DNA of 35,971 nt, taken from IMG/VR virus record IMGVR_UViG_3300021956_000039, positions 1 to 35,971 of that record; one strand, given 5' to 3'. The position numbers were made by a program, and so were the translations under genes. Of the stretch, positions 11,009-35,805 are shown piece by piece. The notes below the pieces were generated by a model. It searched no databases. It had not been told where the DNA came from and saw only the letters and a program-made list of their open reading frames with translations. Source of the stretch: a virus. Positions within the stretch are counted from its first letter, which is position 1, and every line of letters starts with the position of its first letter.

Positions 11009-11078
11009 CAAGCCGCTGCCCCAAGTCTCAACCTCTAGTTGAGGGTTAGGGTTCAGCACGTCTCGGTCCCTGCGCCTA

Positions 11079-11112
11079 GAAAATGGTGCTGATAAATACT
11101 AGGTTTTATTTT
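11079..11112. repeat. 34-bp element copy 1
   Basis: GAAAATGG, 14 bases (TGCTGATAAATACT), AGGTTTTATTTT; followed by CCGTTTTCATGAGG. Preceded by AACCTCTAGTTGAGGGTTAG at 11030. Confidence 0.85.
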
Positions 11113-11163
11113 ATGCGCGACCGTTTTCATGAGGCCCCAGGGCTCGCCCCAGAATGCCATCAG

Positions 11164-11199
11164 GCGAGCGTACAGCCCCGCTAAGAGGTGTACGCTCGC
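11164..11199. terminator. Perfect 11-bp hairpin
   Basis: GCGAGCGTACA pairs with TGTACGCTCGC around a 14-base loop, downstream of the 11489-11250 gene. No U-tract on the minus strand. Confidence 0.5.
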
Positions 11200-11216
11200 C
11201 CGCTTTGGTCTTTGTA

Positions 11217-11246
11217 CCTTTTGGCGGTCTGTACCAAGCCGTAAGG
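11217..11246. repeat. Conserved-loop hairpin, copy 2
   Basis: CCTTTTGGC and GCCGTAAGG arms (two mismatches) around GGTCTGTACCAA, ending 3 bases before the stop codon of the minus-strand gene at 11250; likely its 3' hairpin. Confidence 0.6.
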
Positions 11247-11249
11247 GGC

Positions 11250-11489
11250 TTAGTCGCGCATCGCCTTCCACATCTCGTAGATGTAGCCGTGTCCACCGCC
11301 GAAGTCGTACTTCTCACCGACAATGCTGGCGAGGTCTTTGAGTGCGTCAAACACTGACATTGCGCCACCCTCTTCGCCCTCGTAGGGCAGGTCGCTCTCA
11401 ATGTTGTTGAGTGTTACCGCAAACTCTGCGAGCACGGTTCTCATTCCGTCTATCGCTTCCTGCGCTGTCATCACCTTTTCATCTTCCAT
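11250..11489 (-). CDS. Hypothetical acidic protein, 79 aa
   Basis: Begins MEDEKVMTAQEAIDGMRTVLAEFAV; helical, ending GGGHGYIYEMWKAMRD. GAAAGG lies 8 bases upstream. Promoter 11528-11556 (TTGCAA-N17-TACAAT), whose -35 lies in the last codons of the gene upstream. No family recognised. Confidence 0.75.
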   Translation of the reverse strand: MEDEKVMTAQEAIDGMRTVLAEFAVTLNNIESDLPYEGEEGGAMSVFDALKDLASIVGEKYDFGGGHGYIYEMWKAMRD

Positions 11490-11533
11490 TGTTTTGCCTT
11501 TCGTGTTGGGTTGTAACTTACTATTACATTGTA

Positions 11534-11722
11534 TCAGTTTGCTTCAACTTTTGCAAACACTTCTGCCCGCATACTTACTGCGAGGCGGTGGAATGCGTCC
11601 ATAAAGATTGCCTGCTTCTCTGGCGAGCGTGGGTAGTCCATCTCTGCCAGTCGGCGGGCTTCTGCTGTCTTTGTGGCGAGCAACTCTGCCCACCAGTTGT
11701 CCGTTGCGTTGAGGTCTTGCAT
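11534..11722 (-). CDS. Hypothetical helical protein, 62 aa
   Basis: Begins MQDLNATDNWWAELLATKTAEARRLAEMDY; AAAGGA upstream. Its final codons (FAKVEAN) contain the -35 of the next gene's promoter. Separated from the 11961 gene upstream by a perfect hairpin (11758-11791). No clear promoter of its own. Confidence 0.72.
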   Translation of the reverse strand: MQDLNATDNWWAELLATKTAEARRLAEMDYPRSPEKQAIFMDAFHRLAVSMRAEVFAKVEAN

Positions 11723-11757
11723 TGTGTTCCTTTGTGTTGGTTCGGTTAGTTCGTGTT

Positions 11758-11791
11758 CCCCTTACGGCGGTCTGCACCAAGCCGTAAGGGG
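11758..11791. repeat. Conserved-loop hairpin, copy 3
   Basis: Perfect 11-bp stem CCCCTTACGGC/GCCGTAAGGGG with loop GGTCTGCACCAA, between two minus-strand genes. Compared with copy 2 the arms differ at compensating positions. Confidence 0.65.
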
Positions 11792-11817
11792 CTTTGAGGG
11801 GTGACTGTCTTACTCGC

Positions 11818-11961
11818 TTAGACTAACTTGCCTTTTAGAGCGAACTTGAACTGCAACACAATCCACAGGTGCTGTGCTTCGCACTCGGCAACTGTGATAA
11901 GTCCTCGCTTAGCCTGCTCTGTAACCTTTCCAATTTGTTCCAGTGCTTCGTCAAATGTCAT
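11818..11961 (-). CDS. Small helical protein, 47 aa
   Basis: MTFDEALEQIGKVTEQAKRG start is chosen because GAAAGGAAACCCA precedes it; a longer frame to 12030 crosses the promoter. Promoter 11990-12018: TTGCAG-N17-TATACT. Function unknown. Confidence 0.68.
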   Translation of the reverse strand: MTFDEALEQIGKVTEQAKRGLITVAECEAQHLWIVLQFKFALKGKLV

Positions 11962-12095
11962 TGGGTTTCCTTTCGTAGTAGGTATACAAAGTATACAGCA
12001 ATATGCGACACCCTGCAAGTCAATCCCCAAAATATTCAGCGCAACTCTGCCGAGGCCGCTGCCCGTGATATATCACAGGAATATCACTATTTGGC

Positions 12096-12124
12096 TTGCA
12101 TTGTGTGAGAGAGTGTGCTATACT
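12096..12124 (+). promoter_or_regulatory. Promoter of leaderless gene 12131
   Basis: TTGCAT, 17 bases, TATACT; the ATG begins exactly 7 bases after the -10, so transcription should start at the start codon. Confidence 0.75.
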
Positions 12125-12130
12125 GTATAT

Positions 12131-12244
12131 ATGAACAACACACCTAACCCAGACAATAAGTGCCACTCCAACGACTGCCCAAGCGAGGCAGGCGAAGGCT
12201 ACGAGGGCTACTGCCCAGACCATTGCTACAAGGCAGTGGACTGA
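12131..12244 (+). CDS. Leaderless 37-aa zinc-knuckle-like peptide
   Basis: MNNTPNPDNKCHSNDCPSEA.. with C11, C16, C28 and C32 (last part YCPDHCYKAVD). Cysteine spacing suggests a zinc site. No ribosome site; the promoter places +1 at the A of ATG. On the opposite strand to most neighbours. Plus-strand terminator-like hairpin 12363-12401 lies 120 bases on. Confidence 0.65.
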   Translation: MNNTPNPDNKCHSNDCPSEAGEGYEGYCPDHCYKAVD

Positions 12245-12353
12245 CCGCTAACGGCGGGCGGGAGTGGCGAACCCGCAAAGCCGCCGCCCAGGCCGCCGCG
12301 CGCGCCTATTCCCCCCTTTGTGTGCGCCGTTGCACTGCATCTCTATATATAAT

Positions 12354-12401
12354 ATTATAGCATAGCGGGATAGGCTTTGCAACCTATCCCGCTATTTTTT
12401 T
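12354..12401. promoter_or_regulatory. Nested hairpin/promoter module 1
   Basis: TAGCGGGATAGG/CCTATCCCGCTA stem (12363-12374, 12383-12394) with TTGCAA in the loop (12377-12382) and T7 run after it on the plus strand. On the minus strand the loop TTGCAA is followed after 17 bases by TATAAT (12354-12359). The leftward promoter has no gene in front of it; the plus-strand reading could end the 12131 transcript. Confidence 0.75.
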
Positions 12402-12403
12402 AT

Positions 12404-12634
12404 TTATTTTTTCGCCAGCGCCGAGCGGAGTTTCGTCATTCCGCACTTGTCTGACATTGAGCCCCACCCTTGCGAGACTTGTTCTAGTTCGCCGTTGCGG
12501 AGTTCCGCCATTAGGGTTGAGTAGTGGTAGATATGACGGGTGTCGCCGTCAATGTCCACCGCACGCCACGAGGACGCCTTGAACGAACGCCCCGCCTTGA
12601 CGGGCTTGGTTACTAGGTCTGACATACTTGCCAT
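12404..12634 (-). CDS. Small phage protein, 76 aa
   Basis: Start at MASMSDLVTKPVK (GAAGGGAAACTCA upstream). Contains HIYHYSTLMAELRNGELEQVSQGWGSMSDKCGMTKLRSAL; the 'YHY.T.M......GWGS.SD..GM.K' layout recurs in actinophage proteins of unknown role. Promoter 12666-12694: TTGCAT-N17-TATACT. Module 1 begins right after its stop. Confidence 0.75.
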   Translation of the reverse strand: MASMSDLVTKPVKAGRSFKASSWRAVDIDGDTRHIYHYSTLMAELRNGELEQVSQGWGSMSDKCGMTKLRSALAKK

Positions 12635-12737
12635 TGAGTTTCCCTTCGTTGAGTTGGTAATATCAAGTATACACGGGTATGGGTGAATATGCAAGTCAAA
12701 CGGGCAAAAATAAATAAATATTTTTATCTCAAAATAC

Positions 12738-12956
12738 TTGCAAAGTGTGCTAAACCGTGCTATACTGTATCTATCACCTAAACGGTGGCGCTAGAGAATA
12801 TGCCTACGAGATAGGTACGGGTTACAGGGACACAACTTGGTGCGGGCAACAAACCCCGCACGGCTCGGATTACTAGTGGGGGCTGGTGGGGCGCAAGCCT
12901 TGTTGGCTCACTGAGAATAATAGCGGGGGCGGGTGAGGTTCGTAGCCTCGCCCGCT
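12738..12956 (+). ncRNA. Candidate small RNA (or decayed leaderless gene)
   Basis: Promoter TTGCAA-N17-TATACT (12738-12766) is nearly the same as those of the two leaderless genes at 12131 and 13126, but the +1 position has ATC instead of ATG and a stop follows at once. The RNA would start near 12773, contain GTGCGGG/CCCGCAC (about 12840-12862) and end at hairpin GCGGGTGAGG/CCTCGCCCGC (12929-12955). Confidence 0.45.
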
Positions 12957-13090
12957 CGCCGAGCAAATCCAGCAACCGCTGCCCGCCGCGCCAGACACCT
13001 TCTCCACCTTATATATATACTATATCACAATATCCTACACTCTGCAACCTATTTTCCAAAAAATATTTATTTATTTTTTCCTCTGAATAG

Positions 13091-13119
13091 TTGCTATCTG
13101 TGGGAGAGTGTGCTATACT
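13091..13119 (+). promoter_or_regulatory. Promoter of leaderless gene 13126
   Basis: TTGCTA-N17-TATACT with ATG 7 bases after the -10. Shares the GAGAGTGTGCTATACTGTAT segment with the promoter at 12096, so the two are duplicates. Confidence 0.75.
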
Positions 13120-13125
13120 GTATAT

Positions 13126-13284
13126 ATGACAACGACACTGAATAACCACGAAGTATACCTATCCGCCTATTGCGTATCCGCTGAAGGTGCGCTTGTAGTC
13201 TGCGGTTCTGAAACCGAATACGAGACACTATCCTTTGGCGGTAGCGTCAAGGTCTGCGCACACTGCGGGGAGTGGCTGAACTAG
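13126..13284 (+). CDS. Leaderless 52-aa cysteine-containing protein
   Basis: Begins MTTTLNNHEVYLSAYCVSAE and ends CAHCGEWLN; C44/C47 form a CxxC with C16 and C26 as possible partners. No ribosome site; start set by the promoter spacing. No recognised family. Confidence 0.65.
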   Translation: MTTTLNNHEVYLSAYCVSAEGALVVCGSETEYETLSFGGSVKVCAHCGEWLN

Positions 13285-13353
13285 CCACCCTTGCGGGGCG
13301 CAAGCCAGCGCGTCCCCTGCCCGTGATATATCAGCAAAATATCACGATTTGAC

Positions 13354-13450
13354 TTGACAAGTCTCTGATAGTGTGCTATAATAGATATAGGGAAGCCGCC
13401 GCCCGAGCGAACACCTGTTCGGGGCGGGTGGTTAGCCCGCCCCGTGAGGT
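13354..13450 (+). ncRNA. Candidate short RNA with palindromic hairpin
   Basis: TTGACA-N17-TATAAT (13354-13382) is the best plus-strand promoter in the area, yet no ATG follows. The RNA would contain GCCGCCGCCC, then CGAACACCTGTTCG (13408-13421) inside a larger CCGCCC/GGGCGG stem, and meets the 3' end of the convergent gene at 13451. Confidence 0.4.
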
Positions 13451-13588
13451 TTAGCCCCGTAGTGATAGGTAGATTTCTCGGTGCCACGCCGAGATTTCGT
13501 CACACACGCAGTCACACGACCAGAGTGCGCAGTCCTCGCAGAGTTCTATTTCGTCATTTTCCATTGGGTTGTCTGTGTTGTTGTTCAT
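13451..13588 (-). CDS. Leaderless 45-aa cysteine cluster protein
   Basis: MNNNTDNPMENDEIELCEDC..: C17, C20, C25, C27 and C29 are packed in 13 residues, suggesting a metal site. Promoter 13595-13623 (TTGCAT-N17-TATACT) puts +1 at the ATG. A second in-frame ATG (M9) exists but lacks a ribosome site. Confidence 0.62.
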   Translation of the reverse strand: MNNNTDNPMENDEIELCEDCALWSCDCVCDEISAWHREIYLSLRG

Positions 13589-13728
13589 ATATAAAGTATA
13601 CAACCTCGTGAGGGAATATGCAAGTCAATTTGGCAAATTTCTAAATATTTTTATTTCCAGCAACCGCCGCGCCAAATAGGGCGAGACTGTTGGGCGCCTA
13701 ACCATACAGTCCCGCCCCGTAGGGCTTG

Positions 13729-13959
13729 CTACACCGCCATTGCTTCGGCAAGCGAACGGGCAACCGTTCCCGTGAAGGTTGGGCTAACCCAACGCAACAC
13801 AACCGCCATATCGGCGCTACGGTCACGGATAACCGCTACCTTTGCGGACTTCTCCATAAAGGTCACGGCTTCGGTGAGGGTATCGCACGACATCACCTTG
13901 ACGAGCCCTGCGTCGCCCTCGTTGTCCCACTGCCAAGTAACTAGATACTGATTTTCCAT
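13729..13959 (-). CDS. Hypothetical protein, 76 aa
   Basis: Begins MENQYLVTWQWDNEGDAGLVKVMSCDTLTEAVTFMEKSAKVAVIRDRSA. AAGGAG upstream; promoter 13990-14018 (TTGCAA-N17-TATACT). Beta-alpha-beta appearance with no clear family. A long frame in another register over the same DNA is a shadow. Confidence 0.75.
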   Translation of the reverse strand: MENQYLVTWQWDNEGDAGLVKVMSCDTLTEAVTFMEKSAKVAVIRDRSADMAVVLRWVSPTFTGTVARSLAEAMAV

Positions 13960-14055
13960 TTTGTTTCTCCTTGTTGAGTTGGTAATTATAGTATAGCATA
14001 CCCTGCCACACTTTGCAACTTATTCCTAAATTATTTTTCCGAGTGCCGCCGCCCC

Positions 14056-14069
14056 CGAACACTTGTTCG
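14056..14069. promoter_or_regulatory. LexA-like palindrome (GAAC-N4-GTTC)
   Basis: CGAACACTTGTTCG next to GCCGCCGCCCC. Other copies: 10149-10162, 13408-13421, 16079-16092 (CGAACATATGTTCG) and 16104-16117. The GAAC-N4-GTTC core is that of Gram-positive/actinobacterial LexA boxes, but it could equally be a hairpin, since flanking GC bases also pair. Confidence 0.45.
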
Positions 14070-14099
14070 GGCGGGGTTGCCAGTCCCGCCCGCTAAGCG

Positions 14100-14471
14100 T
14101 TACGCCCGCTCTAGTTCGGCGTCCTGCCGAGCCCAAATTGCCGAGCGGGTCTCGTAGTCTTGGAGTGTCCAAGCGAAGTGAGCGTCTAGGCTCTCGGTAG
14201 AGTGCTTAGGCACATCAAATTGTGCTTCCTTCACACGGATACCGAGCGCACGCACGCCCGCCACGATGCCTGCGAAGGCGTCCTGCGAGACGAGCCCGAC
14301 CATATAGTACTCGGTCTCCCATTCCTCACTCATACCGTCACGGTCAAGCGTGAGGCTGGTGAGGGTCTCGCCGTACTGGCTGGCTACTTGCTCGTAAGCC
14401 AAGCGCACTTGCTCGCCCGTCATCGGAGCCCAGTATTCGGACATAAAGTAAGCGAAGCCGAAGTTTTTCAT
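14100..14471 (-). CDS. Hypothetical protein, 123 aa
   Basis: Start MKNFGFAYFMSEYWAPM with AAAGGAAATAACAAA upstream. Rest has two helical segments and a WETEYYMVGLVSQDAFAGIVAGVRAL core. Promoter 14505-14533 (TTGCGT-N17-TACAAT). No family recognised. Confidence 0.75.
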   Translation of the reverse strand: MKNFGFAYFMSEYWAPMTGEQVRLAYEQVASQYGETLTSLTLDRDGMSEEWETEYYMVGLVSQDAFAGIVAGVRALGIRVKEAQFDVPKHSTESLDAHFAWTLQDYETRSAIWARQDAELERA

Positions 14472-14637
14472 TTTGTTATTTCCTTTCGTTGTGGTGTGAT
14501 ATCTATTGTAGCACTTTCTAGCACTGCACGCAACTCGTAACGACATATTTCTGAATTATTTTTTTCCCAGCAACCGCCGCGCGGGAACGCCTTCTCCACC
14601 CTTTCTGCGCTCCGTTGCGCTGTACCCTTATACTTAT

Positions 14638-14666
14638 ATTATAGCATACCCTGTGAGACTTTGCAA
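14638..14666 (-). promoter_or_regulatory. Orphan leftward promoter
   Basis: TTGCAA-N17-TATAAT with no gene before the next promoter at 14533. Downstream RNA has GGGTGGAGAAGG and GCGCGGCGGTTGCTGG, motifs also found after other orphan promoters. Confidence 0.6.
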
Positions 14667-14709
14667 GCCAATTCGGCAAATAATTTTATTTATTTTTTCT
14701 TGTTTTGAC

Positions 14710-14738
14710 TTGCTTATTGTCTCATATTGCTGTATACT
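14710..14738 (+). promoter_or_regulatory. Promoter of leaderless gene 14745
   Basis: TTGCTT-N17-TATACT; ATG begins 7 bases after the -10. Confidence 0.7.
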
Positions 14739-14744
14739 TATTAT

Positions 14745-14993
14745 ATGACAACAACATACCAACAACTAAAAACAGACGCCCTAATCGCCCGCATATCTCA
14801 CCTAGAGTGGACACTCGGCAGAGTAATGTCCGCACTTGAGGTTGCCGAACGAGAGAGCAAGGACTACGCCTACCGTGAGGGTCACGGAATGAGTGGTGCT
14901 ATGTACTGGTCAAGTGCGTTCGGTTGGCTTTCGGGCTCGGTAACGAGTGCGGTAAGCACGGCTAAGCACGGCTTAGAGTTCGGGCGAGAATAG
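14745..14993 (+). CDS. Leaderless helical protein, 82 aa
   Basis: MTTTYQQLKTDALIARISHL start fits the promoter exactly; six codons upstream in frame would precede +1. Contains a helix (LEWTLGRVMSALEVAERESKDYAYREGHG) and a glycine/serine-rich middle. Shares the MTTT opening with the 13126 product. Followed by a GTGGGGC/GCCCCAC hairpin (about 15006-15024). Confidence 0.7.
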   Translation: MTTTYQQLKTDALIARISHLEWTLGRVMSALEVAERESKDYAYREGHGMSGAMYWSSAFGWLSGSVTSAVSTAKHGLEFGRE

Positions 14994-15430
14994 CCCAAGC
15001 GTGGTGAGTGGGGCGCAAGCCCCACAAGCCGCCGCCCAAAACGCCATATGCCACCATTTGCGTCTAGTTAGCATATGCGAGGCGTGACCCATATTCTGCT
15101 AGGGTCAATAGGACATTTTTCGCTGACCCCTCTCAAAACGCTTCCTATTGCGTCTAATACCCCATAATATCGCACACGAAAAAAACTGTACAATTTGCCA
15201 TTGTTAGGCTTGCCTAACACTCTCACAACTTGCGCTACGAGCCCATCTGTAAGCCCTTATTTTGTTCGGTCTGCCTTAGTCTCTTGAACGGATTACAGGC
15301 TCTCAAAACGGCTTACAATGCGTCTCACGGCATTTGTGGTGGCGGTCGGGCGTGAGGGCTGCCGCCCGCAAACCCAATACCCGCCGCGCCAAACGGGGCA
15401 GGTGGTTAGCCTGCCCCGTAGGGCTACCGT
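14994..15430. other. Intergenic stretch 4
   Basis: Hairpin near 15006-15024, a CTCTCAAAACGCTTCCTATTGC repeat part (15132-15161), one TTAGGCTTGCCTAA site (15204-15217) and a full 60-bp repeat (15271-15330). No gene. Confidence 0.6.
15271..15330. repeat. 60-bp dispersed repeat, copy 1
   Basis: Runs from CTGCCTTAGTCTCTTGAA to GCGTCTCACGG. Copies 2 and 3 at 15985-16045 and 19680-19738; partial ones at 10792-10834, 15132-15161 and about 15900-15930. Confidence 0.65.
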
Positions 15431-15688
15431 CTAGCGGTAGTAGAGCCAGTTCTTGCGAAACTGGACTGCCGTACCCTCGTAGTCGGCGTTAGCGTCTTGG
15501 CTAACTGCGCTTACAAGGACTGGCTGAATAACCAGTGTGTCGGGCGTATCCTTTTCCGTGCGCAAGGCTCGGTTACTGGCAAGGGCATAGGTAGCCCCGT
15601 TGTCGTGGCTGACTGCCATAGTGGTACGGGCTTGGCGTGAATTGGTCAAGCCTGACCATTGGATATTGCTATTGCGTGCTGGTCGCAT
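15431..15688 (-). CDS. Hypothetical protein, 85 aa
   Basis: Start MRPARNSNIQWSGL has GAAAGGGACAT before it. Contains SRQARTTMAVSHDNGATYALASNRALR. Promoter 15730-15758 (TTGCAA-N17-CATACT). Unknown function. Confidence 0.7.
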   Translation of the reverse strand: MRPARNSNIQWSGLTNSRQARTTMAVSHDNGATYALASNRALRTEKDTPDTLVIQPVLVSAVSQDANADYEGTAVQFRKNWLYYR

Positions 15689-16171
15689 ATGTCCCTTTCG
15701 TATAGGTACTTCGTTTTCCCTATGTATAAAGTATGCCATAGTATGCGACACTTTGCAACTCATACGGGCATATTTTCCCTAATATCTTGAGAATATATCA
15801 CCAGATTTTGCACCAACCGCCGCGCCAAAACGCCTATTCTAAGCCGTTCTGAGCCGAGTTATGCGACAATGTGGGTGCTTGCCCCATAACGGGCTTGCCT
15901 CGCTGTAATCGCTTCCTAATGCGTCTGGTGGAATATGCCACTATATGCGTCACAATGCGTTCTAATGCGTTCGGATAGGCTCTTTTTGCCTTAGTCTCTT
16001 GAATATTTTACAAGCGCTGTAAAGGCTTCCTATTGCGTCTGAAGGGTATCTAGGGCTTGCTCGCCAATGTGCGTGAGGCGAACATATGTTCGGTGCCGCC
16101 GCCCGAACACTTGTTCGCTCGGTTCGGTTATGGGCTAGGCAGGTTTTACCCTGCCTAGCCTGCCCAACCGC
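15689..16171. other. Intergenic stretch 5, repeat-rich
   Basis: Promoter of 15688; AATATATCACC and ACCAACCGCCGCGCC motifs (about 15790-15828); GCTTCCTAATGCGTCT part repeats; full 60-bp repeat copy 2 (15985-16045); two GAAC-N4-GTTC palindromes (16079, 16104). No gene. Confidence 0.6.
15985..16045. repeat. 60-bp dispersed repeat, copy 2
   Basis: GCCTTAGTCTCTTGAA at the left and TTGCGTCTGAAGG at the right, aligned with copies at 15271 and 19680. Confidence 0.6.
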
Positions 16172-16546: not shown

Positions 16547-16664
16547 TAGGTACTGCCTTTCATTGAGTTGGTCGGGCTTGTTCCCGACATATACAAGTAT
16601 AGGGTATGGGTGCGACAATGTCAAGCCAATTTATATTACAATATTGTGACATATTCCACAATAG

Positions 16665-16738
16665 TTATCCACAGAGTTACCCACAGCCTGTGGATAACTT
16701 TTTGTTAGGCTGACCTTACAAGTGTTAGGCTGACCTAA
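16665..16738. other. Candidate origin of replication B
   Basis: TTATCCACA (16665), near-match TTACCCACA (16677) and TGTGGATAA (16689) sit just before two TTAGGCTGACC-type palindromes 20 bp apart. This repeats the arrangement at 10.84-11.01 kb. Confidence 0.5.
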
Positions 16739-16818
16739 CAGCCGCCGCCCAACTCTAAACCTTTACTTGAGGGTTAGGGTTTGTCCAACGAGCGACTGGG
16801 GCGAAGCCCCTGCGCCGA

Positions 16819-16852
16819 GAAAATGGTGTTCCACGCGCGTAGGTTTTATTTT
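16819..16852. repeat. 34-bp element copy 2
   Basis: GAAAATGG, 14 bases (TGTTCCACGCGCGT), AGGTTTTATTTT, then CCGTTTCATAGGG; ends 40 bases before the stop of the LysM-like gene. Confidence 0.85.
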
Positions 16853-16892
16853 ACTGCGCTACCGTTTCATAGGGCCCCAGGGCTGTGGCGGA

Positions 16893-17240: not shown

Positions 17241-17249
17241 ATATCTATT

Positions 17250-22196: not shown

Positions 22197-22290
22197 CTTG
22201 TGGGTGATATTGTTCTGATATATCACGGGGCTTGTTAGGTGCGCCTAACTTTTGTTAGGTCAGCCTAACGGGCGCGAGCCTCTGCCCTGA

Positions 22291-22324
22291 GAAAATGGTA
22301 TGAGTAATAACTAGGTTTTATTTT
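22291..22324. repeat. 34-bp element copy 3
   Basis: GAAAATGG, 14 bases (TATGAGTAATAACT), AGGTTTTATTTT, then GTCGTTTCATTGAG. The spacer differs fully from other copies, the boxes do not. Confidence 0.85.
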
Positions 22325-22373
22325 GTGCGCGTCGTTTCATTGAGCCCCTGGGCGCGTGGCGAAAATTCAGAGT

Positions 22374-24320: not shown

Positions 24321-24322
24321 GT

Positions 24323-25372: not shown

Positions 25373-25524
25373 TGTGTTCCTTTCGTTGTGTTGTTTCTTA
25401 CCCTATAAATTGTACACCCACCGTGCGATAATAGCAACCTTATTTTGTGTTATATATCACCGAGATATCACGGGCCGCCGACCCTAAACCTCTACTTGAG
25501 GGTTAGACTTTTGCCCCTGCCCCA

Positions 25525-25558
25525 GAAAATGGTTATCTATATAAGTAGGTTTTATTTT
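25525..25558. repeat. 34-bp element copy 4
   Basis: GAAAATGG, 14 bases (TTATCTATATAAGT), AGGTTTTATTTT, then GTCGTTTCTATGAGG touching the stop of the 25582 gene. AACCTCTACTTGAGGGTTAG at 25487-25506. Confidence 0.85.
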
Positions 25559-25581
25559 AGTTTTTTGTCGTTTCTATGAGG

Positions 25582-25788
25582 TCAGTCCAAGCCGCGCCAT
25601 GCTGTCGCAGAGCGACGAGCGAGACGGACAGTCATGCAGGGGAATGGCGTGCCGCAGTAAATGCAGTGCGGCTCCTTACCACCATCTGTTGAGTGTGGCG
25701 CTGACATCATGTAAATCGTTGATTGCAGTCTGTTGATTACAACGTCCTTTGGGTCTACTTGAATAAAGTTTTCTTCATTGTCTTCCAT
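25582..25788 (-). CDS. Zinc-site protein, 68 aa
   Basis: Begins MEDNEENFIQVDPKDVVINR; C42, C45 and C51 (CIYCGTPFPC) followed by MTVRLARRSATAWRGLD. The 'C.YCG.PFPC.TV' string is common in actinophage small proteins. AGGAG upstream. Unknown. Confidence 0.75.
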   Translation of the reverse strand: MEDNEENFIQVDPKDVVINRLQSTIYMMSAPHSTDGGKEPHCIYCGTPFPCMTVRLARRSATAWRGLD

Positions 25789-27364: not shown

Positions 27365-28405
27365 TCACAGGCTCGCTAGAGCCTGCAACACTTTCGCATC
27401 TGCTGTGCCAGTAGAACCGCTAAGTGCATTGAGCATGTTTCGCTCAATTCGGTTCTTGTCTGTGCCAGCCTTGTGGTGGTTGTAGGTGTTGTAAGCCTGC
27501 AACACTCCGAGCGCTGAACCCTTCCACGGGGCTACTCGCATGTCGTTAGCGTAGAGGTCTTTCAACGCCCAACGCTTATTCTCTGCACGAGTAATCGCCG
27601 TCTTTTGTTCAAGGTCGGTTGGCACTGGCACTAACTGGTTGAGCAGTGTGTTCCACTGTTCGTCAGTTACTTTCCACTCTGACAATTTTGTAATCTCTGC
27701 GATTACATCATCTGTCATTTTGTGGATAATGCCGAGCGCATCACGAGCCGATTGAATTCGCATAGCGCTGTGCTTTGAGTGACGAGCCTTGAATTGCTCA
27801 CCATCTTCGCCCATCGCCATTGAGTGCGTGTTGTCGCAGACCACGAAAGTAGATACTTTCTTGTAGGTCGTTGCCAACGTGCCGATATGACTGGTCGTTG
27901 CGAGCAAGTGAGGGCGAACTTTGAACCCTTCAATTACTTCAACGCTTTCAGGCATTTCAAGCGACACCCAAGCGACACCACCATTTTTGAGCAACCCTGC
28001 CGAACCGATTGCCAACTCGTCATCTACGAGGTTTGCAAGGTTCTTCACGAGCCATTCGTTGTACTGGTGGATTGCGTAGCCATCTTTGAAGATTTCAAAC
28101 ATCTCGTTTGTGTCATCTCGCAAGATTGCTTTGCGATTTTCAGCCTTGATGAACTTGACGGGGTTTCCGTTTTCGTCAACGCTTGTCGCATCTTCCATTG
28201 TGGCTGGCACTTGGATAAACACTGGTGCTTCCGTTGCCGACCATGCGAACAGCCTGCGCTGTACATCTTCCACAGGAATTGCGCCTGCGTAATGGTTCGG
28301 CTCTGCACCTTGCTCATCTTTCTTGTAGTGCCATGCGTGACCACGCTGGTCGGTCATGCCCACAAGAATTTGTGTGTTGTACCACTTGCTGGTTTCCATA
28401 CCCAT
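27365..28405 (-). CDS. DUF932 (phage/plasmid-like, LGT-type) protein, 346 aa
   Basis: Begins MGMETSKWYNTQILVGMTDQ with AAGGAG upstream. Features of the DUF932 / TIGR03299 family: an N-terminal VEDVQRRLFAW segment, FIKAENRKAILRDDTNEMFEIFKDGYAIHQYNEWLV, then SLEMPESVEVIEGFKVRPHLLATTSHIGTLATTYKKVSTFVVCDNTHSMA and a helical C-terminus with VPVPTDLEQKTAITRAENKR. Widespread on phages and plasmids, biochemical role unknown. Largest gene of the right half. Promoter 28454-28482. Confidence 0.88.
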   Translation of the reverse strand: MGMETSKWYNTQILVGMTDQRGHAWHYKKDEQGAEPNHYAGAIPVEDVQRRLFAWSATEAPVFIQVPATMEDATSVDENGNPVKFIKAENRKAILRDDTNEMFEIFKDGYAIHQYNEWLVKNLANLVDDELAIGSAGLLKNGGVAWVSLEMPESVEVIEGFKVRPHLLATTSHIGTLATTYKKVSTFVVCDNTHSMAMGEDGEQFKARHSKHSAMRIQSARDALGIIHKMTDDVIAEITKLSEWKVTDEQWNTLLNQLVPVPTDLEQKTAITRAENKRWALKDLYANDMRVAPWKGSALGVLQAYNTYNHHKAGTDKNRIERNMLNALSGSTGTADAKVLQALASL

Positions 28406-28453: not shown

Positions 28454-28482
28454 ATTATATCAAATTATCGCAGGCTTTGCAA
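28454..28482 (-). promoter_or_regulatory. Promoter of DUF932 gene
   Basis: TTGCAA-N17-TATAAT; the TTGCAA lies in a short CAGG/CCTG loop, a reduced version of the nested modules, with a plus-strand T7 run. Confidence 0.65.
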
Positions 28483-28629
28483 CCTGTACAGAAGATTTTT
28501 TTATTTCTTCTCGCTAACTTGATAATTCAATTCTATCGGGACATTGCCCAAACACCAACCTCAAAATAAAATTATCTTGTGATATATCACGGGCCTGATA
28601 TATCAGCGGCCCGCGTGCCCCTGCCCCCA

Positions 28630-28663
28630 GAAAATGGTGTTCCAAAGACATAGGTTTTATTTT
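28630..28663. repeat. 34-bp element copy 5
   Basis: GAAAATGG, 14 bases (TGTTCCAAAGACAT), AGGTTTTATTTT, then GCCGTTTCTATGAGAG. Confidence 0.85.
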
Positions 28664-28692
28664 AGTAAAAGTGCCGTTTCTATGAGAGGGTG

Positions 28693-28730
28693 CCAGCCGC
28701 GGAGGAAACGGGGGTGAACTCCGCGGCTGG
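28693..28730. terminator. Perfect 12-bp hairpin
   Basis: CCAGCCGCGGAG pairs with CTCCGCGGCTGG around a 14-base loop; lies between the 28778 stop and element copy 5. Confidence 0.6.
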
Positions 28731-29554: not shown

Positions 29555-29631
29555 TAGTTTCTCCTTTGTTGTGTTGTTATTACATATTCAAGTATATCAG
29601 TTATTGCTCTTAAGCGCAACTTTTGTTGCGC

Positions 29632-30120: not shown

Positions 30121-30172
30121 AGTTGCAGAATATACAACACCCTGCGAACCATGTCTAGCATCTAAGAATTAT

Positions 30173-30607: not shown

Positions 30608-30637
30608 TGTTTTTTCTCCTTATTGTGTTGTTTTTGC

Positions 30638-30826: not shown

Positions 30827-31061
30827 AACCAAACTCCTCATTAATAAAGTTATATACTTTCTTCATCTCCATCATGAACTCGTCAAAGGACATGTTGAAC
30901 GGCCACTTCACCTCACGCAGTACTTGACCGAATACTCCATCAGTTGGGACATTCTCCCAAACATACAGAAGATTAAATCCAGCCTGAACATAGTCACGCA
31001 TCGCTCGTGTGAATTCAAGTGTGTCTAACTCATTTGCTATTTCTCTTTTAATTGCTTTCAT
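30813..31061 (-). CDS. Hypothetical protein, 82 aa
   Basis: Begins MKAIKREIANELDTLEFTRA, immediately after the stop of the gene upstream. Helical; ends KVYNFINEEFGYESL. Unknown. Confidence 0.72.
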   Translation of the reverse strand: MKAIKREIANELDTLEFTRAMRDYVQAGFNLLYVWENVPTDGVFGQVLREVKWPFNMSFDEFMMEMKKVYNFINEEFGYESL

Positions 31062-31319
31062 TTAAAAACTCCTTGTGTCAATTAGGAACTGCGGATTATT
31101 CCCACAGTCCAACATTTTGTTAAATAGTCTTACTACTTCTTCTTCGTTCTCCTCAAACTCCCCGTCACCGAGATAGCCCGACTCAAACGATGCTGTGTCG
31201 TTATTCCAAATCATTCTGTTGCCGAACATAGCCTGTTCTGTGTCCACGTCATGTATCCACTTTCCAGTCTTGCCGTCAAAGTATGTGATGAAGTAATACT
31301 GCTTTTCATTTTGTATCAT
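31062..31319 (-). CDS. Hypothetical protein, 85 aa
   Basis: MIQNEKQYYFITYFDGKTGK start has GAGG 6 bases upstream and overlaps the previous stop by 14 bases; an upstream in-frame ATG lacks this. Beta-rich then acidic helix. Unknown. Confidence 0.66.
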   Translation of the reverse strand: MIQNEKQYYFITYFDGKTGKWIHDVDTEQAMFGNRMIWNNDTASFESGYLGDGEFEENEEEVVRLFNKMLDCGNNPQFLIDTRSF

Positions 31320-31470
31320 TACAAGCCTCGCAGTCATTGTATTTGTTTGTAAATTTCCATTCTTCACAGTCTCTACAAATACCGTAATAGTAAAATTGTT
31401 TTACTTCTTTCTTTAGTATTTCCGTGACAGTGTCGTGAGGCAAGTGCGCTAGTTCTCCCCATTGTTTCAT
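31306..31470 (-). CDS. Zinc-site protein, 54 aa
   Basis: MKQWGELAHLPHDTVTEILK start shares a base with the upstream stop (TAATG), with GAGGAG before it. C32/C35 (CRDC) and C47/C50 (CEAC) form a zinc ribbon. Confidence 0.72.
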   Translation of the reverse strand: MKQWGELAHLPHDTVTEILKKEVKQFYYYGICRDCEEWKFTNKYNDCEACNDTK

Positions 31471-31826
31471 TAGTACTCCTCGTCTTCGTCGTCGTACCAA
31501 CTGTCCTCTGCATCGCTCGCACCTTGCGGAATAAGCGACTTGAAGCCAGCGTTAGGGTTTTCGTGGTTTGTTGCTACTGACTGAATAAAGCGGAGACCAC
31601 AAGAGTTGTCCCACCACTGCTTTAGTTTTGCCAGCATCTCCTGTGGAGTGCCCGTGAAGTTGCGGTCATCGCAATCACGTCCGTTGTAGTTTCCACGAAA
31701 CCACTGTGCCTGTTCTTCGTCCATCGCAAGATAAATCTTGTGACAGCCATCAAAAGCGATTAGGTGCGCATCTTCTAATGCGTACTCAACATCACTCCAG
31801 TAATCTTCCATTGTTGTTGTTGCCAT
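31470..31826 (-). CDS. Hypothetical protein, 118 aa
   Basis: Begins MATTTMEDYWSDVEYALEDA, AAGGAG upstream, middle GRDCDDRNFTGTPQEMLAKLKQWWDNSCGLRFIQSV, very acidic tail. Promoter 31864-31892 has a good -10 (TATAAT) and weak -35 (TTTGAA). First of a five-gene coupled operon running to 30638. Confidence 0.75.
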   Translation of the reverse strand: MATTTMEDYWSDVEYALEDAHLIAFDGCHKIYLAMDEEQAQWFRGNYNGRDCDDRNFTGTPQEMLAKLKQWWDNSCGLRFIQSVATNHENPNAGFKSLIPQGASDAEDSWYDDEDEEY

Positions 31827-31883
31827 TGTTTTCTCCTTGTTTAGTTGTAATTGTGTTGATTCTATTATAGCAGGTTCTACTAT

Positions 31884-32201
31884 TTATTCAAAGTCAAAAG
31901 GCATAGAAATTAGCAAAACTTCTACTGACGCGTCTGTGTCTAGTTCTCCATCAACATACGGATACGCAAGAGCCTTTAGCACGCCATGTTCATTAATATA
32001 ATAATTAATATCAATGTGGTCGTTGTATGCTTTCCACTCATCGTATTCTAGGTGATAGTTACCGAGTCCCATCTTTTGGAGTAACTGCATTGAGCCACAC
32101 TTGGTTTGTGCGTGGCGAATTACATCGTCCAATTGAAAGATAGCGATGCCGAGTTTGTCAGCCTCTTTATCTAAGTTTTTTTCAAGTATTTGCATTGCCA
32201 T
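31884..32201 (-). CDS. Hypothetical protein, 105 aa
   Basis: Begins MAMQILEKNLDKEADKLGIA; TAGGAG upstream; 9 bases after the previous stop. Mixed alpha/beta, ends VEVLLISMPFDFE. Unknown. Confidence 0.73.
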   Translation of the reverse strand: MAMQILEKNLDKEADKLGIAIFQLDDVIRHAQTKCGSMQLLQKMGLGNYHLEYDEWKAYNDHIDINYYINEHGVLKALAYPYVDGELDTDASVEVLLISMPFDFE

Positions 32202-32210
32202 TGTGTTCTC

Positions 32211-32444
32211 CTATAGTCCTAGAATTCGGTACGGTTTTAATTGTTCTTCAGTCATTACTGCTGTCCAGTGTTCAACTTCGGAAACATCCCATGGTTTATC
32301 CCACGGAAGTACCTGAACATCAATTATTTGTTCATTTACGTAGTCGCCACTATCCACCAATCCCTGTGCTTCCTCTAGGCTGTTGGCGTCAACTTGATAA
32401 GTGACCGCTACATCAACTGATTGTTGTATTAAATATTGTCTCAT
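32211..32444 (-). CDS. Small beta-rich protein, 77 aa
   Basis: Begins MRQYLIQQSVDVAVTYQVDA; the 'SVDV.VTYQV.A.S.EEA..LV.SGD' line is a common phage small-protein layout (beta hairpin plus helix). AAAGGAG upstream; a structured leader precedes it (32468-32506). Promoter 32511-32539. Confidence 0.76.
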   Translation of the reverse strand: MRQYLIQQSVDVAVTYQVDANSLEEAQGLVDSGDYVNEQIIDVQVLPWDKPWDVSEVEHWTAVMTEEQLKPYRILGL

Positions 32445-32467
32445 TAAGTTCTCCTTTGTTGTGATTA

Positions 32468-32506
32468 GTAGAGGGACACGGAACCCGACGAACCGTGCCC
32501 CTCTAC
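32468..32506 (-). other. 5' leader hairpin of the 32444 gene
   Basis: GTAGAGGGGCACGG pairs with CCGTGTCCCTCTAC, a 14-bp stem whose only irregularity is a G-U pair on the minus-strand RNA (A-C mismatch on the other strand), so the minus RNA is the folded form. Predicted +1 (about 32504) is at the stem base. Confidence 0.65.
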
Positions 32507-32510
32507 ATCT

Positions 32511-32539
32511 ATTATATCAGCATTGTTGGATATTACCAA
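32511..32539 (-). promoter_or_regulatory. Promoter of 32444 operon
   Basis: TTGGTA-N17-TATAAT; -35 overlaps the 3' end of the gene upstream. Confidence 0.6.
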
Positions 32540-32997
32540 CTTGACTGATACTTAAAAGTCCAAGTGTCAGGCATTTCCAAGCACTTGTTAATAATTTCAA
32601 CAGTCAAACTGACATCTTGAAAGTACCACTCATCAATTTCGGTTGAGCCGAAGAAGAAACCAGCCTGTGTTGGCAGTAGTTCTTCTGCTTTACCTTTATC
32701 TTTGAGTGCCAACTTACAGAGGTCACGAAGTTCAATCAACTTTGCACGGTCTACATAGTATTCCGCACAGTTGTCTTCTCCGTTCTGCACATTGTCAACA
32801 AACCATTGGTGGATTTGATTGGCTTTGCGCCAGTATCCAACCTTTAGGTCAACAACGATTGAAGGCAAGTCTGTATCAACAAACTTTTCTCCGTCAATTG
32901 CTTTCAAGAGGTCGTTGAACTTCTTGCGCTCATCTTCAGGTCGCCACTCGGCTGGTGAAGTGTATTTGCTTGCGTATAGGTACATATCTAATCCCAT
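32533..32997 (-). CDS. Conserved phage protein, 154 aa
   Basis: Begins MGLDMYLYASKYTSPAEWRP; contains VGYWRKANQIHQWFVDNVQNGEDNCAEYYVDRAKLIELRDLCK and LPTQAGFFFGSTEIDEWYFQDVSLTVEIINKCLE. This 'MGLDMYL...YWRK.N.IH.WFV...Q.G.D.C..Y.V' family is widespread in phages and bacteria but without known activity. AAGGAG upstream; promoter 33039-33067 (TTGCAG-N17-TATAAT). Confidence 0.85.
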   Translation of the reverse strand: MGLDMYLYASKYTSPAEWRPEDERKKFNDLLKAIDGEKFVDTDLPSIVVDLKVGYWRKANQIHQWFVDNVQNGEDNCAEYYVDRAKLIELRDLCKLALKDKGKAEELLPTQAGFFFGSTEIDEWYFQDVSLTVEIINKCLEMPDTWTFKYQSSW

Positions 32998-33067
32998 TGT
33001 GTTTTCTCCTTGTTTGTGTTGTTTATTTGGTTGTATATATTATAGCACAGTCAGTTACAAACTGCAA

Positions 33068-33319
33068 CTATAAAGTGCTGAAATAATCTGCGTTGAACAT
33101 TCCAGCCATATAAGTTGCTTGTCCGACTATTTCTAAAGTATTTATATTTATAATGTTTCCACAGTCAAAGCAGACGTAACTAGTCCCGTCCCAATCGCCA
33201 TCAGGCTCACGGATTACTCCGTTTTGACGGCACGGATAGAAACCTGACGAGTGAGGTGCATTCCCACACTTACACTCCAGCCAGTCGCTTGTTCCGCTAA
33301 CAAATTGTTTTTCTTCCAT
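33068..33319 (-). CDS. Zinc-site protein, 83 aa
   Basis: Begins MEEKQFVSGTSDWLECKCGN; C16/C18, C30 and C50/C53 (CFDCG) suggest a zinc ribbon. Glycine-rich middle. AAGGAG upstream; -10 TATACT at 33347-33352, no clear -35. Confidence 0.76.
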   Translation of the reverse strand: MEEKQFVSGTSDWLECKCGNAPHSSGFYPCRQNGVIREPDGDWDGTSYVCFDCGNIININTLEIVGQATYMAGMFNADYFSTL

Positions 33320-33402
33320 TGTGTTCTCCTTGTTTGTGTTACTTCAAGTATACACGAATATTGCACAAAGCGGGCGGATTTGTTTGTGATATATCACCAC
33401 AT

Positions 33403-33424
33403 AAAATAAAAGAACACCATCTCC
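33403..33424. repeat. Partial inverted copy of the 34-bp element
   Basis: Reading the minus strand: GAGATGGTGTTCT then TTTTATTTT, i.e. both boxes without the spacer, facing element copy 6 about 45 bases away. The two could pair. Confidence 0.55.
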
Positions 33425-33466
33425 GAGAAGGCAGAAGTCGCATAGAGGCACGGCCTCTGCCCTCTG

Positions 33467-33500
33467 GAAAATGGTGTTCCAGATATGTAGGTTTTATTTT
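33467..33500. repeat. 34-bp element copy 6
   Basis: GAAAATGG, 14 bases (TGTTCCAGATATGT), AGGTTTTATTTT, then GCCGTTTCTGTGGG; ends shortly before the 33528 stop. GAGGC-ACG-GCCTC hairpin before it. Confidence 0.85.
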
Positions 33501-33527
33501 TATTTCTTGCCGTTTCTGTGGGCCATG

Positions 33528-33776
33528 CTATGCCGCGACCAGAAGCGAAGTTCCTCCCGCTGACGCTATCGTCTCTGAAAGCATCTGCTGAAAGTCAGAA
33601 AATCTAACCTGAACATTATTTAACTTGAATACCGCACGCAGCATCCAAGCACCACCGCAGTTCCTCCCTTCCGAAATAGCAATGTATGCATATTCGTCAA
33701 GAACGCGCAATACGCTTGCTAGTTCTTTGCACGCATCGTAGGTCGGCATTTTTGCTGTCAGTACGAGGCGCTGCAT
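33528..33776 (-). CDS. Hypothetical protein, 82 aa
   Basis: Begins MQRLVLTAKMPTYDACKELA; no ribosome site at this ATG, and the internal M10 has none either, so the start is unsure. Contains GAWMLRAVFKLNNVQVRFSDFQQMLSETIASAGG. Unknown. Confidence 0.6.
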   Translation of the reverse strand: MQRLVLTAKMPTYDACKELASVLRVLDEYAYIAISEGRNCGGAWMLRAVFKLNNVQVRFSDFQQMLSETIASAGGTSLLVAA

Positions 33777-33831
33777 GCATACATATTTGCACGCAGAAAG
33801 CGGAAAGGAGAACTAACTCGGTGTGATTAAA

Positions 33832-34077
33832 TTAACCTACCCAGCGACCAAAGACTGTATAGCCTTCGCCTTCAGCACGGACCAACCACTCGGTTCCTGG
33901 ATAACGCTTTTTATATTGCTGCGCCTTTGAGTGGCCAGTCTTAGCGATGTTGCCTGTTGAGTAAACAGCCCACTGATTTGGATTTGCTTGTAGTGTTTCT
34001 ACGAACTTACGAACTTGGCCAGGTGACCCGTTCTTTGGTGTTGGTGGATTGCGCCACTCTGTATTTGTTGCATTCAT
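33832..34077 (-). CDS. Hypothetical protein, 81 aa
   Basis: Begins MNATNTEWRNPPTPKNGSPG; AGGAG upstream. The GQVRKFVETLQANPNQWAVYSTGNIAKTGHSKAQQYKKRYPGTEWLVRAEGEGYTVFGRWVG stretch resembles small phage DNA-binding-like proteins ('Q....P..WA........A.......+..P..E...R'). Promoter 34130-34158 (TTGCAA-N17-TATAGT). Confidence 0.76.
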   Translation of the reverse strand: MNATNTEWRNPPTPKNGSPGQVRKFVETLQANPNQWAVYSTGNIAKTGHSKAQQYKKRYPGTEWLVRAEGEGYTVFGRWVG

Positions 34078-34159
34078 TATATTTCTCCTAATTATTGTTG
34101 TTTGTTGTATTACTTATGTTGCTTATTACACTATACCGTACTTGCACACTTCTTGCAAC

Positions 34160-34615
34160 CTAGAAAGGAAGTTTTTCCCACATTCCTTCTCGCTCGCAAT
34201 CAAAGACTGTTACGCCTAGTGACGAGTACATTTCCCGCGTACGGTTGTTTGATTCAATCGCAAAATATTGTTTTGGATTATCTCCGTATGTTGGGAAAAC
34301 TTTATTTAAAACTTGGTGCTTTTTTACCAGAGGTGCTTCGGAACCAGAGATGCCCGTATCATTGAACATCGCATGGTTCGGCGACCACCCTTGTGTATCC
34401 CAGATGCGCTTAAGGGTCGGCCGCGCCCACTTCTGGTCACGAGCGGTAATTAGAATTACATACTCGTCGCGCAGCAGTTCAACCATCCAATCGCGGTACT
34501 CCTCAACCTCTTTTACAAAGGTCTCAAAGTTGTGATGACGCATTTCTTTAAAATTACTAGAGAGCGCGACATTGAGGTCCATTAATACAATTCGGTCAAT
34601 GTGCTTTCTTTTCAT
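34160..34615 (-). CDS. HAD-like phosphatase fold protein with altered motif I
   Basis: 151 residues. Motif I is VLMDLN (D13-L14-N15), where active HAD phosphatases have DxD; motif II ILITARD (T57); lysines K98/K99; and AIESNN (119-124) near motif III. The layout fits polynucleotide-kinase-3'-phosphatase-like or nucleotidase-like HAD proteins. The Asp-to-Asn change at the acid/base position predicts weak or absent phosphatase activity. 4 bases after the upstream stop, so coupled. Confidence 0.72.
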   Translation of the reverse strand: MKRKHIDRIVLMDLNVALSSNFKEMRHHNFETFVKEVEEYRDWMVELLRDEYVILITARDQKWARPTLKRIWDTQGWSPNHAMFNDTGISGSEAPLVKKHQVLNKVFPTYGDNPKQYFAIESNNRTREMYSSLGVTVFDCEREGMWEKLPF

Positions 34616-34619
34616 AAAA

Positions 34620-34781
34620 TTATTCTACTGCATCTTTCTTTGGATTAGTTGAAACCAACTCCATATCAACTGTTTTCGCGCTGTGTTTTGTAGGATTAGA
34701 ACAGGTCGGCGGATAAGCCGCGCTAATCGTCCCTGTTTTAAGCCCGCATAACGGACACTTCCAGTTGTAAGGCATCTTCAT
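34620..34781 (-). CDS. Zinc-site protein, 53 aa
   Basis: Begins MKMPYNWKCPLCGLKTGTIS; C9/C12 with C27. Start shares one base with the upstream stop (TAATG), with GGAGGAG before it. Probably a small zinc ribbon. Confidence 0.72.
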   Translation of the reverse strand: MKMPYNWKCPLCGLKTGTISAAYPPTCSNPTKHSAKTVDMELVSTNPKKDAVE

Positions 34782-35029
34782 TACCAATCTCCTCCCATGT
34801 GGTACAGCCCGCCCATTCCCGAGATTGCCATTAGCATGTAATCCTGGTCTGATAAACCATTCTTACAAATCTCGCAAATAGTTGAGCCATCTTGAAACGA
34901 GTACATTACAGGATGCGGAAGGCAGCATGTGTCACATTCTGTTGCCGCGCCCTGCGTAACTGTAACCGTATACGTTCCTAGGGTTGTTTGATTGTTTTTT
35001 GGATTGGACCGTTTTTTACCGAAGGCCAT
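34781..35029 (-). CDS. Zinc-site protein, 82 aa
   Basis: Begins MAFGKKRSNPKNNQTTLGTY; C32/C35/C36 (CDTCC) and C52/C55 (CEIC). Ends with a glycine/methionine stretch (MAISGMGGLYHMGGDW). Overlaps the previous gene's 3' end by 52 bases. AAGGAG lies 12 bases before the ATG. Confidence 0.7.
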   Translation of the reverse strand: MAFGKKRSNPKNNQTTLGTYTVTVTQGAATECDTCCLPHPVMYSFQDGSTICEICKNGLSDQDYMLMAISGMGGLYHMGGDW

Positions 35030-35313
35030 ATTTTATTATAACTCCTTACGAATTGTGATGGTGTTGGCATATAGAGGAACTTGGCAAAGGCTGACACTCG
35101 CTTTGAGAGTCCTGCCGCTGGCATGTAAACCACACCGATGAGGGCAATGCCCATAATCAGTGGCTGTCCCGCTACTGCAAAGCACGCTGTTGTCCAGACC
35201 AAAAGTATCCATCTCATAAAGGCTCCCAAGTCTGTATGAAACCAGGCGTGGTACCTTTTGAGTAGGTATGGGCTGTTGATTGAATTGATGATTGCTTCAT
35301 CCAATTTATTCAT
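34978..35313 (-). CDS. Membrane protein, 111 aa
   Basis: MNKLDEAIINSINSPYLLKR start has AGGAG upstream. Two hydrophobic segments (MRWILLVWTTACFAVAG, LIMGIALIGVVYMPAAG) give a helical hairpin; basic C-terminus. Promoter 35342-35370 (TTGTGA-N17-TACGCT). Unknown. Confidence 0.72.
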   Translation of the reverse strand: MNKLDEAIINSINSPYLLKRYHAWFHTDLGAFMRWILLVWTTACFAVAGQPLIMGIALIGVVYMPAAGLSKRVSAFAKFLYMPTPSQFVRSYNKIWPSVKNGPIQKTIKQP

Positions 35314-35389
35314 TGTGCTCCTATGTATTGTGTTGTCTTCAAGCGTACACGTTCGCACGCCATCTCACAACCTCTATGTCTGTAATATA

Positions 35390-35548
35390 TCAGCGGTTAT
35401 TGTATGACTCGCTAAAATTATTCCAGTTCTCTTCGTTGGCAGCGTCGTAGTTCATCTTCCGACACCATTGAAAGTACTCCCGCATCTTCGCGTTCATATA
35501 AGCACGCTCTTCTGGGGTACTAGCAAATTTAATTATCATTGGTTCCAT
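35390..35548 (-). CDS. Small helical protein, 52 aa
   Basis: MEPMIIKFASTPEERAYMNA start has the strong site AAAGGAGGTG. Ends NNFSESYNNR. Promoter 35580-35608 (TTGGGA-N17-TATAAT). Unknown. Confidence 0.72.
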   Translation of the reverse strand: MEPMIIKFASTPEERAYMNAKMREYFQWCRKMNYDAANEENWNNFSESYNNR

Positions 35549-35698
35549 TGGTTTCACCTCCTTTATTCGGTTACTACTAATTATAGCAGGTCGCGCGCAC
35601 ATTCCCAACATTGTTTCTGATATTCTTCTGATATATCACGGTACTATTATATTAAAATAATGGGGTCTGCCCACCGTACGGAGACTTCCCCTGCCCGA

Positions 35699-35732
35699 GA
35701 AAATGGTGTTCCAGCCAGACAGGTTTTATTTT
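35699..35732. repeat. 34-bp element copy 7
   Basis: GAAAATGG, 14 bases (TGTTCCAGCCAGAC), AGGTTTTATTTT, then GGTTTTAATGAGCC. TGATATATCA at 35629-35638. Tandem with copy 8, 73 bp apart. Confidence 0.85.
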
Positions 35733-35771
35733 GCTTTAATTGGTTTTAATGAGCCTGCCTCGGCCCGCGGA

Positions 35772-35805
35772 GAAAATGGTGTTCCAGCGACTCAGGTTTT
35801 ATTTT
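35772..35805. repeat. 34-bp element copy 8
   Basis: GAAAATGG, 14 bases (TGTTCCAGCGACTC), AGGTTTTATTTT, then CCGTTTTATTGGGC, which overlaps the stop codon of the gene at 35821. Confidence 0.85.

Follow-up and report, generated by a model that had tools for sequence, protein, structure and literature searches.

A composite intergenic element of ~80 bp, present in eight copies in the virus record IMGVR_UViG_3300021956_000039 (IMG/VR; positions 1 to 35,971, a stretch of 35,971 nucleotides hereafter called the window), may be a double-stranded DNA (dsDNA) control site of the early operon downstream of it. Under this reading, which we favour tentatively, the bound factor is most likely phage-encoded and probably acts with polarity. 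The reading is based on a fixed core with variable linkers, a single orientation, confinement to an early region, a position between hairpin and promoter, and a tendency to remain with the downstream gene. The sequence, conservation, position and orientation of the element are direct observations. The window encodes terminase subunits, SSB and an exonuclease, and its minus strand holds almost all of the genes.

A composite element with a rigid core

The core of the element, GAAAATGG-N14-AGGTTTTATTTT, is present as eight exact copies in the window, all on the plus strand, compared to none expected from shuffled sequence, and no additional copy was found in the window with up to three mismatches. 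A sequence-only reading of this DNA had reported the eight sites, with both boxes exact and a spacer of exactly 14 bases, and had noted that five of the eight spacers begin with TGTTCCA while three begin otherwise; both descriptions are correct, as is that of a C-rich stretch, which is CCCCTG-like and lies 5′ of most copies. The third box that it described is also present, but at a distance of 7-10 bases in the window rather than 5-13, and it is degenerate at the copy beginning at 35699. The element is longer than the 34 bp initially proposed: a C-rich box precedes the rigid core of 34 bp, which is followed by a linker of 2-14 bp and a CCGTTYCCTTGGGC box, with a consensus over 68 copies of TGCCCCTGCCCC-AAAAATATGGTGTTCCANNNNNNNCGGATTTATTT-(2-14 nt)-CCGTTYCCTTGGGC. 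The core contains no insertions or deletions in any of these 68 copies, even though the search pattern permitted some, whereas both outer linkers vary.

Relatives of the window were collected via the large terminase subunit, giving 43 loci (40 of these at 75-95% identity), and copies were counted with a model of the element built on its sequence only. The related records are metagenomic (IMG/VR) and several are only fragments. The element is carried by at least 10 related phage contigs, with 8-13 copies in the well-covered ones: eight in G000, G002 and G003, nine in G020, G021 and G023, 11 in G017, and 13 in G016 and G018, although one of the copies in G018 is weak and on the opposite strand. 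Short records, and those truncated close to the early region, gave fewer copies. There are ~96 strong matches, or 87 if the near-identical G020 and G021 are counted once, which lie on a single strand per record and are restricted to one early region of 20-27 kb. In G002 and G003 every window element has an orthologous copy and the order is unchanged; this includes the tandem pair formed by copies 7 and 8. Two branches of the element were recognised, the window type (GAAAATGG...AGGTTTTATTTT) and a second type (AAWATGG...GGATTTATTT). The two core boxes are essentially invariant inside the window, as had been stated, but not among relatives, where the core loosens to [AG]A[AT][AT]ATGG-N15-GG[ATG]TTTA[TA]T.

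Across gapped alignments of 12 orthologous loci, identity is 96% in the first box, 70-78% in the second and ~82% in the third, as against 54% for the spacer and ~55-73% for the flanks. Because the two clades and their subclades diverge in the second box, it does not clearly stand above the flanks. The same conservation shape appears more sharply in an ungapped profile, which however overstates flank divergence. The alignment of relatives, which had been suggested as a check, thus found the boxes kept over spacer and flanks in orthologous copies.

Outside this group, the element is absent from 76 loci with DUF932 proteins (the family encoded behind copy 5) of ≤58% identity, and no match was found in deposited phages, which is a weak test for a short degenerate site. 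Bacterial genomes gave 82 pattern matches over unrelated taxa; among the matches listed none had flanking boxes, and they were judged to be due to chance.

Position between operons and a proposed mechanism

The usual order of features on the gene strand is the stop codon of one operon (A), a strong hairpin, the element, palindromic operators, a sigma70-type promoter, a ribosome-binding site and the next operon (B). In 55 of 77 contexts the element lies between a gene A and a gene B that are both on the minus strand, and most of the others reflect uncertain calls of small open reading frames (ORFs), genes having been called with a simple home-made caller. The copies had been described as lying past the end of a minus-strand gene, which holds but is half of the picture, as the start of the next minus-strand gene also lies downstream, ~150-500 bp from the window copies and mostly ~100-500 bp from the element overall. 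In a few relatives the third box reaches into the stop codon of gene A, the nearest gene end being 45-58 bp from ATGG. Sigma70-type promoters, which take the form TTGNNN-17-TANNNT in the intergenic regions, are over-represented on the gene-B side, where they point toward gene B (mean z 2.2 versus 0.5 on the element strand). Strong hairpins are enriched on the gene-A side, where 74% are below -18 kcal/mol versus 19% of control windows and 25% on the other side; these gene-A-side hairpins have no U-tract. The palindromic operators cluster in the element-bearing intergenic regions.

Comparison of the two clades indicates which neighbour the element accompanies. In the gene-B role, eight orthologous groups are preceded by the element in at least one clade, and three of the eight in both, namely DUF932 (3/3 and 5/5), a family of 83 amino acids (aa; 3/3 and 6/8) and another 83-aa gene (3/3 and 4/5). 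In the gene-A role, one of six groups is common to both clades and that one is weak. The uncollapsed pair counts are 39/69 for gene B versus 0/35 for gene A, the pairs being non-independent and the distance used for gene A narrower. The tendency of the element to stay with gene B across clades suggests that the site serves gene B, and speaks against a main role in terminating gene A or in producing RNA antisense to it.

We propose that the element would form the upstream boundary of the region that regulates the early operon to its left (minus strand): it comes just after the 3′ hairpin of the preceding operon, and is followed by the operators and then the sigma70-type promoter of the next one. 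Both boxes of the 34-bp core would be contacted by a sequence-specific factor, most likely encoded by the phage but perhaps by the host, which would probably also touch the flanking C-rich and CCGTTYCCTTGGGC boxes. Once bound, this factor may block read-through from the preceding operon, as a stoperator-like roadblock, or modulate the promoter behind the element. Since one orientation to the downstream operon is shared by almost all copies, the factor probably acts with polarity. We infer protein binding, and with it the protein's identity and the sign and direction of its effect. A protein recognising two half-sites had been suggested previously, and the rigid core in 68 copies, the lack of RNA structure and the boxes kept in orthologues all speak for it.

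One relative, G009, whose terminase is 80% identical to that of the window, has 16 kb upstream of the terminase without the element. Another dispersed motif, TGCCCTAGTTGGCAAGT..., is present instead; its four good copies share one strand with respect to the genes, as those of the element do, and sit between hairpin-bearing gene ends and promoters at boundaries equivalent to those of the element. Such a swap is expected if the exchange of a site goes along with that of the protein binding it (one phage sampled), and the presence of another motif at equivalent places would allow the evolution of site specificity to be followed as a natural experiment.

Table 1 Element copies and neighbouring features. 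Positions are those of the window unless preceded by a locus name (L)
Feature	Position	Strand	Remarks
Element copy 1	11061..11142	+	Core 11079-11112; without TGTTCCA
Element copy 2	16806..16882	+	Core 16819-16852
Element copy 3	22275..22354	+	Core 22291-22324; without TGTTCCA
Element copy 4	25508..25588	+	Core 25525-25558; without TGTTCCA
Element copy 5	28614..28692	+	Core 28630-28663; upstream of DUF932 gene
Element copy 6	33451..33528	+	Core 33467-33500
Element copy 7	35684..35762	+	Core 35699-35732; first of tandem pair; third box degenerate (TTGGTTTTAATGAG)
Element copy 8	35767..35832	+	Core 35772-35805; second of tandem pair
Promoter TTGACA-17-TATACT	16596..16624	-	Sigma70-type, scored; operon downstream of copy 2
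Promoter TTGCAA-17-TATAAT	28454..28482	-	Sigma70-type, scored; operon downstream of copy 5
Promoter TTGGGA-17-TATAAT	35580..35608	-	Sigma70-type, from sequence; operon downstream of copies 7 and 8
DUF932 gene	27365..28405	-	First gene of operon behind copy 5; other-clade orthologue also has element upstream
Strong hairpin	28691..28730	-	13-bp stem, no U-tract; between upstream operon and copy 5
Two TGATATATCA operators	28580..28605		Between copy 5 and its promoter
DnaA-box-like TTATCCACA/TGTGGATAA and TTAGGN4CCTAA palindromes	16665..16738		Between copy 2 and its promoter
Cro/C1-type helix-turn-helix (HTH) gene	L183:12492-12719		Inside array; itself downstream of an element
G009 motif TGCCCTAGTTGGCAAGT	L226:8445, L226:12116, L226:12659, L226:15639		Operon boundaries

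Several operator-like palindromes and other small features were observed nearby. Five CGAAC-N4-GTTCG palindromes occur in the window (10149, 13408, 14056, 16079 and 16104) compared to 0.1 expected, all intergenic, with 2-6 per relative; they have the form of the actinobacterial LexA/SOS box, which suggests that some early operons may be controlled by a host regulator. DnaA-box-like sites number five in the window (0.1 expected), with pairs at 10842-10862 and 16665-16697 and one site (27721) inside a gene, and are also found in relatives. The TTAGG-N4-CCTAA palindromes, loosely reminiscent of iron-box half-sites, number eight with none expected, and are often paired 20 bp apart (10921-11008, 15204, 16705-16738 and 22235-22268). 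The TGATATATCA operator has eight copies in the window (10125, 12066, 13324, 22216, 28580, 28596, 33387 and 35629) and 12-13 in G002 and G003, with none in the G016/G018 branch. A match to the Rfam small RNA (sRNA) sX13 was obtained below threshold on the minus strand at 10212-10327 (37.2 bits, gathering 50, E 0.001), and an 81-aa early protein (33832-34077) is 73-92% identical between clades with no family match.

Conflicting evidence and alternative explanations

A number of observations weigh against a control site for the downstream operon. The last full copy of the array precedes a plus-strand SprT-like gene, on that gene's own strand and ~57 nt before its start, in seven relatives (G016, G017, G018, G020, G021, G023 and G024). 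Most of the seven have a degenerate copy ~0.9 kb beyond, between convergent genes and with no gene-B promoter beside it (for example at L183:18975-20000, where the distance is ~1 kb); a site serving purely gene B needs neither of these copies. Some window operons carry operators without a nearby element, and the cross-clade association with gene B rests on few gene groups. Nor did the searches bring out a cognate factor. The array encodes a 75-aa HTH_3 protein of the Cro/C1 type in G016, G017, G018, G020 and G023 only; G002 and G003 have no match, and that in G000 is weak and inside the small-terminase ORF, leaving no HTH_3 protein common to all element carriers. A lysogeny repressor is not suggested either, since 12 records gave no tyrosine integrase. 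The three largest previously unscanned proteins are tail- or lectin-like.

The main rival, which we consider unlikely, is a second, phage-specific promoter that reads into gene B on the minus strand and stands in tandem with the sigma70 promoter nearer the gene, the core representing two contact boxes about two helical turns apart for host RNA polymerase carrying a phage specificity factor. The fixed core spacing with variable outer linkers, the invariable orientation, the tendency to stay with gene B and a polymerase-like footprint size are all consistent with such a promoter, and four relatives encode a conserved protein of 94 aa whose match to Sigma70_r4_2 is very weak. However, eight related records gave no match to sigma-70 region 2, and all region 4 matches, including that of the 94-aa protein, are sub-threshold. 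Moreover, a host-type promoter was scored for most gene-B operons, and the C-rich stretch, which would be the start region, lies at a variable distance. A search for a T7-type polymerase gave no PF00940 match, although its control set was equally silent. It is rather unlikely that the element is the site of a new kind of phage transcription-specificity factor, the two-box core serving as a second promoter at many early operons without a recognisable sigma factor or phage RNA polymerase. A plus-strand promoter, producing short or antisense RNAs in the direction of the element, is suggested by the ATGGT-N17-TTTATT spacing (-35-like ATGGT, 17-nt spacer, -10-like TTTATT) and by the position of the last full copy before the SprT-like gene, but appears improbable: the remaining copies point at the 3′ end of gene A, and this pairing is retained in only one of six gene groups; the hairpins are not followed by a U-tract on the plus side; and the SprT-like gene has its own sigma70-type candidate (TTGGTT-17-TATAAT) upstream of the element in G018 and G024.

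Location at module boundaries and the tandem pair at 35699 and 35772 would fit a recombination or cassette-exchange site for shuffling operons as modules. We consider this very improbable, as all window copies have collinear orthologues in G002 and G003, inter-element blocks are not preserved as units across clades, and the 12 records yielded no tyrosine recombinase gene. Very little credence is likewise given to a partition, replication or genome-organising site, despite a ParB-domain protein encoded near the array in G018, G016 and G006 and the DnaA-box-like sites that share the intergenic regions; nearly all copies have a single orientation with respect to gene B, and the ParB-domain protein is as similar to phage ParB-nuclease/methyltransferase families as to a partition protein. 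Least probable, and largely refuted, is a structured RNA (terminator, sRNA or riboswitch-like) formed by the partly complementary outer boxes, GAAA.TGG/CCGTTTC. The arms are able to pair within single copies, but pair no better with their own partner (-12.9) than with the arms of other copies (-13.0), and on the minus strand the values are -14.9 and -14.5 (standard deviation 0.3). RNAalifold predicted no base pair on the element alignment, folding z-scores of eight single segments range from -1.7 to +1.6, and Rfam has no match at the element copies up to E 5. A hairpin formed by the outer boxes was rejected on this lack of covariation between the arms, and a terminator of gene A was rejected because the hairpin precedes the element, which itself has neither hairpin nor U-tract.

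Host, significance and relation to known systems

The deposited phages with the closest terminases are a methanogen phage, followed by Gordonia and Brevibacterium phages, all at <46% identity. Based on these terminases and the actinobacterial form of the LexA boxes, the hosts are probably actinobacteria, and the kind of records leads us to guess at a freshwater habitat. The element provides a sharply defined handle on early-gene organisation in an uncultured phage group, in which a fixed upstream site is followed by operators resembling LexA, DnaA and other types, and then by a host-type promoter.

Inter-operon regulatory cassettes comprising a promoter and a hairpin, termed PeSLs, were reportedly described in T4-type phages by Arbiol et al. 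in 2010. We know of no comparable conserved long box in PeSLs, and shuffling bounded by the element was not seen among the phages studied here.

The cluster A mycobacteriophage stoperators (L5, Bxb1) provide a precedent for an asymmetric site that can act with polarity on transcription (PMC6550527), and their structure has also been investigated (PMC9283540). Like stoperators, the element is asymmetric, is dispersed in many copies with predominantly one orientation to transcription, and diverges in sequence between related phages. In contrast to the 13-bp stoperators, it is a composite of a 34-bp rigid core and outer boxes, and is confined to one early region, mostly at operon heads, in phages where no integrase or universal repressor was found. 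The parallel is one of analogy and not of membership.

Other dispersed intergenic motifs have been reported in actinophages. Motifs of no known function in Microbacterium phages include an asymmetric 18-bp motif with 12 copies in cluster EC and a 30-bp motif with five copies in cluster EI (PMC7302621), which resemble the element in being dispersed and intergenic but differ in sequence and size, the EC motifs lying 22-30 bp upstream of start codons. The SAS/ESAS of cluster K mycobacteriophages (PMC3203893) are similarly limited to non-structural genes, mostly in one orientation and tied to the downstream gene, but occupy the ribosome-binding site, whereas the element is far upstream of both promoter and ribosome-binding site. 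Cluster O phages such as Corndog also carry many dispersed copies of a repeat, in this case a 17-bp dyad that is palindromic, partly inside genes and without meaningful orientation (PMC4351075). The sequence-only reading knew of no described element of this type, and none with this sequence was found; actinophages do, however, have other dispersed one-orientation intergenic motifs. The comparable motifs in Microbacterium, cluster K and cluster O phages indicate that the element is of a known kind, while its sequence family appears to be new.

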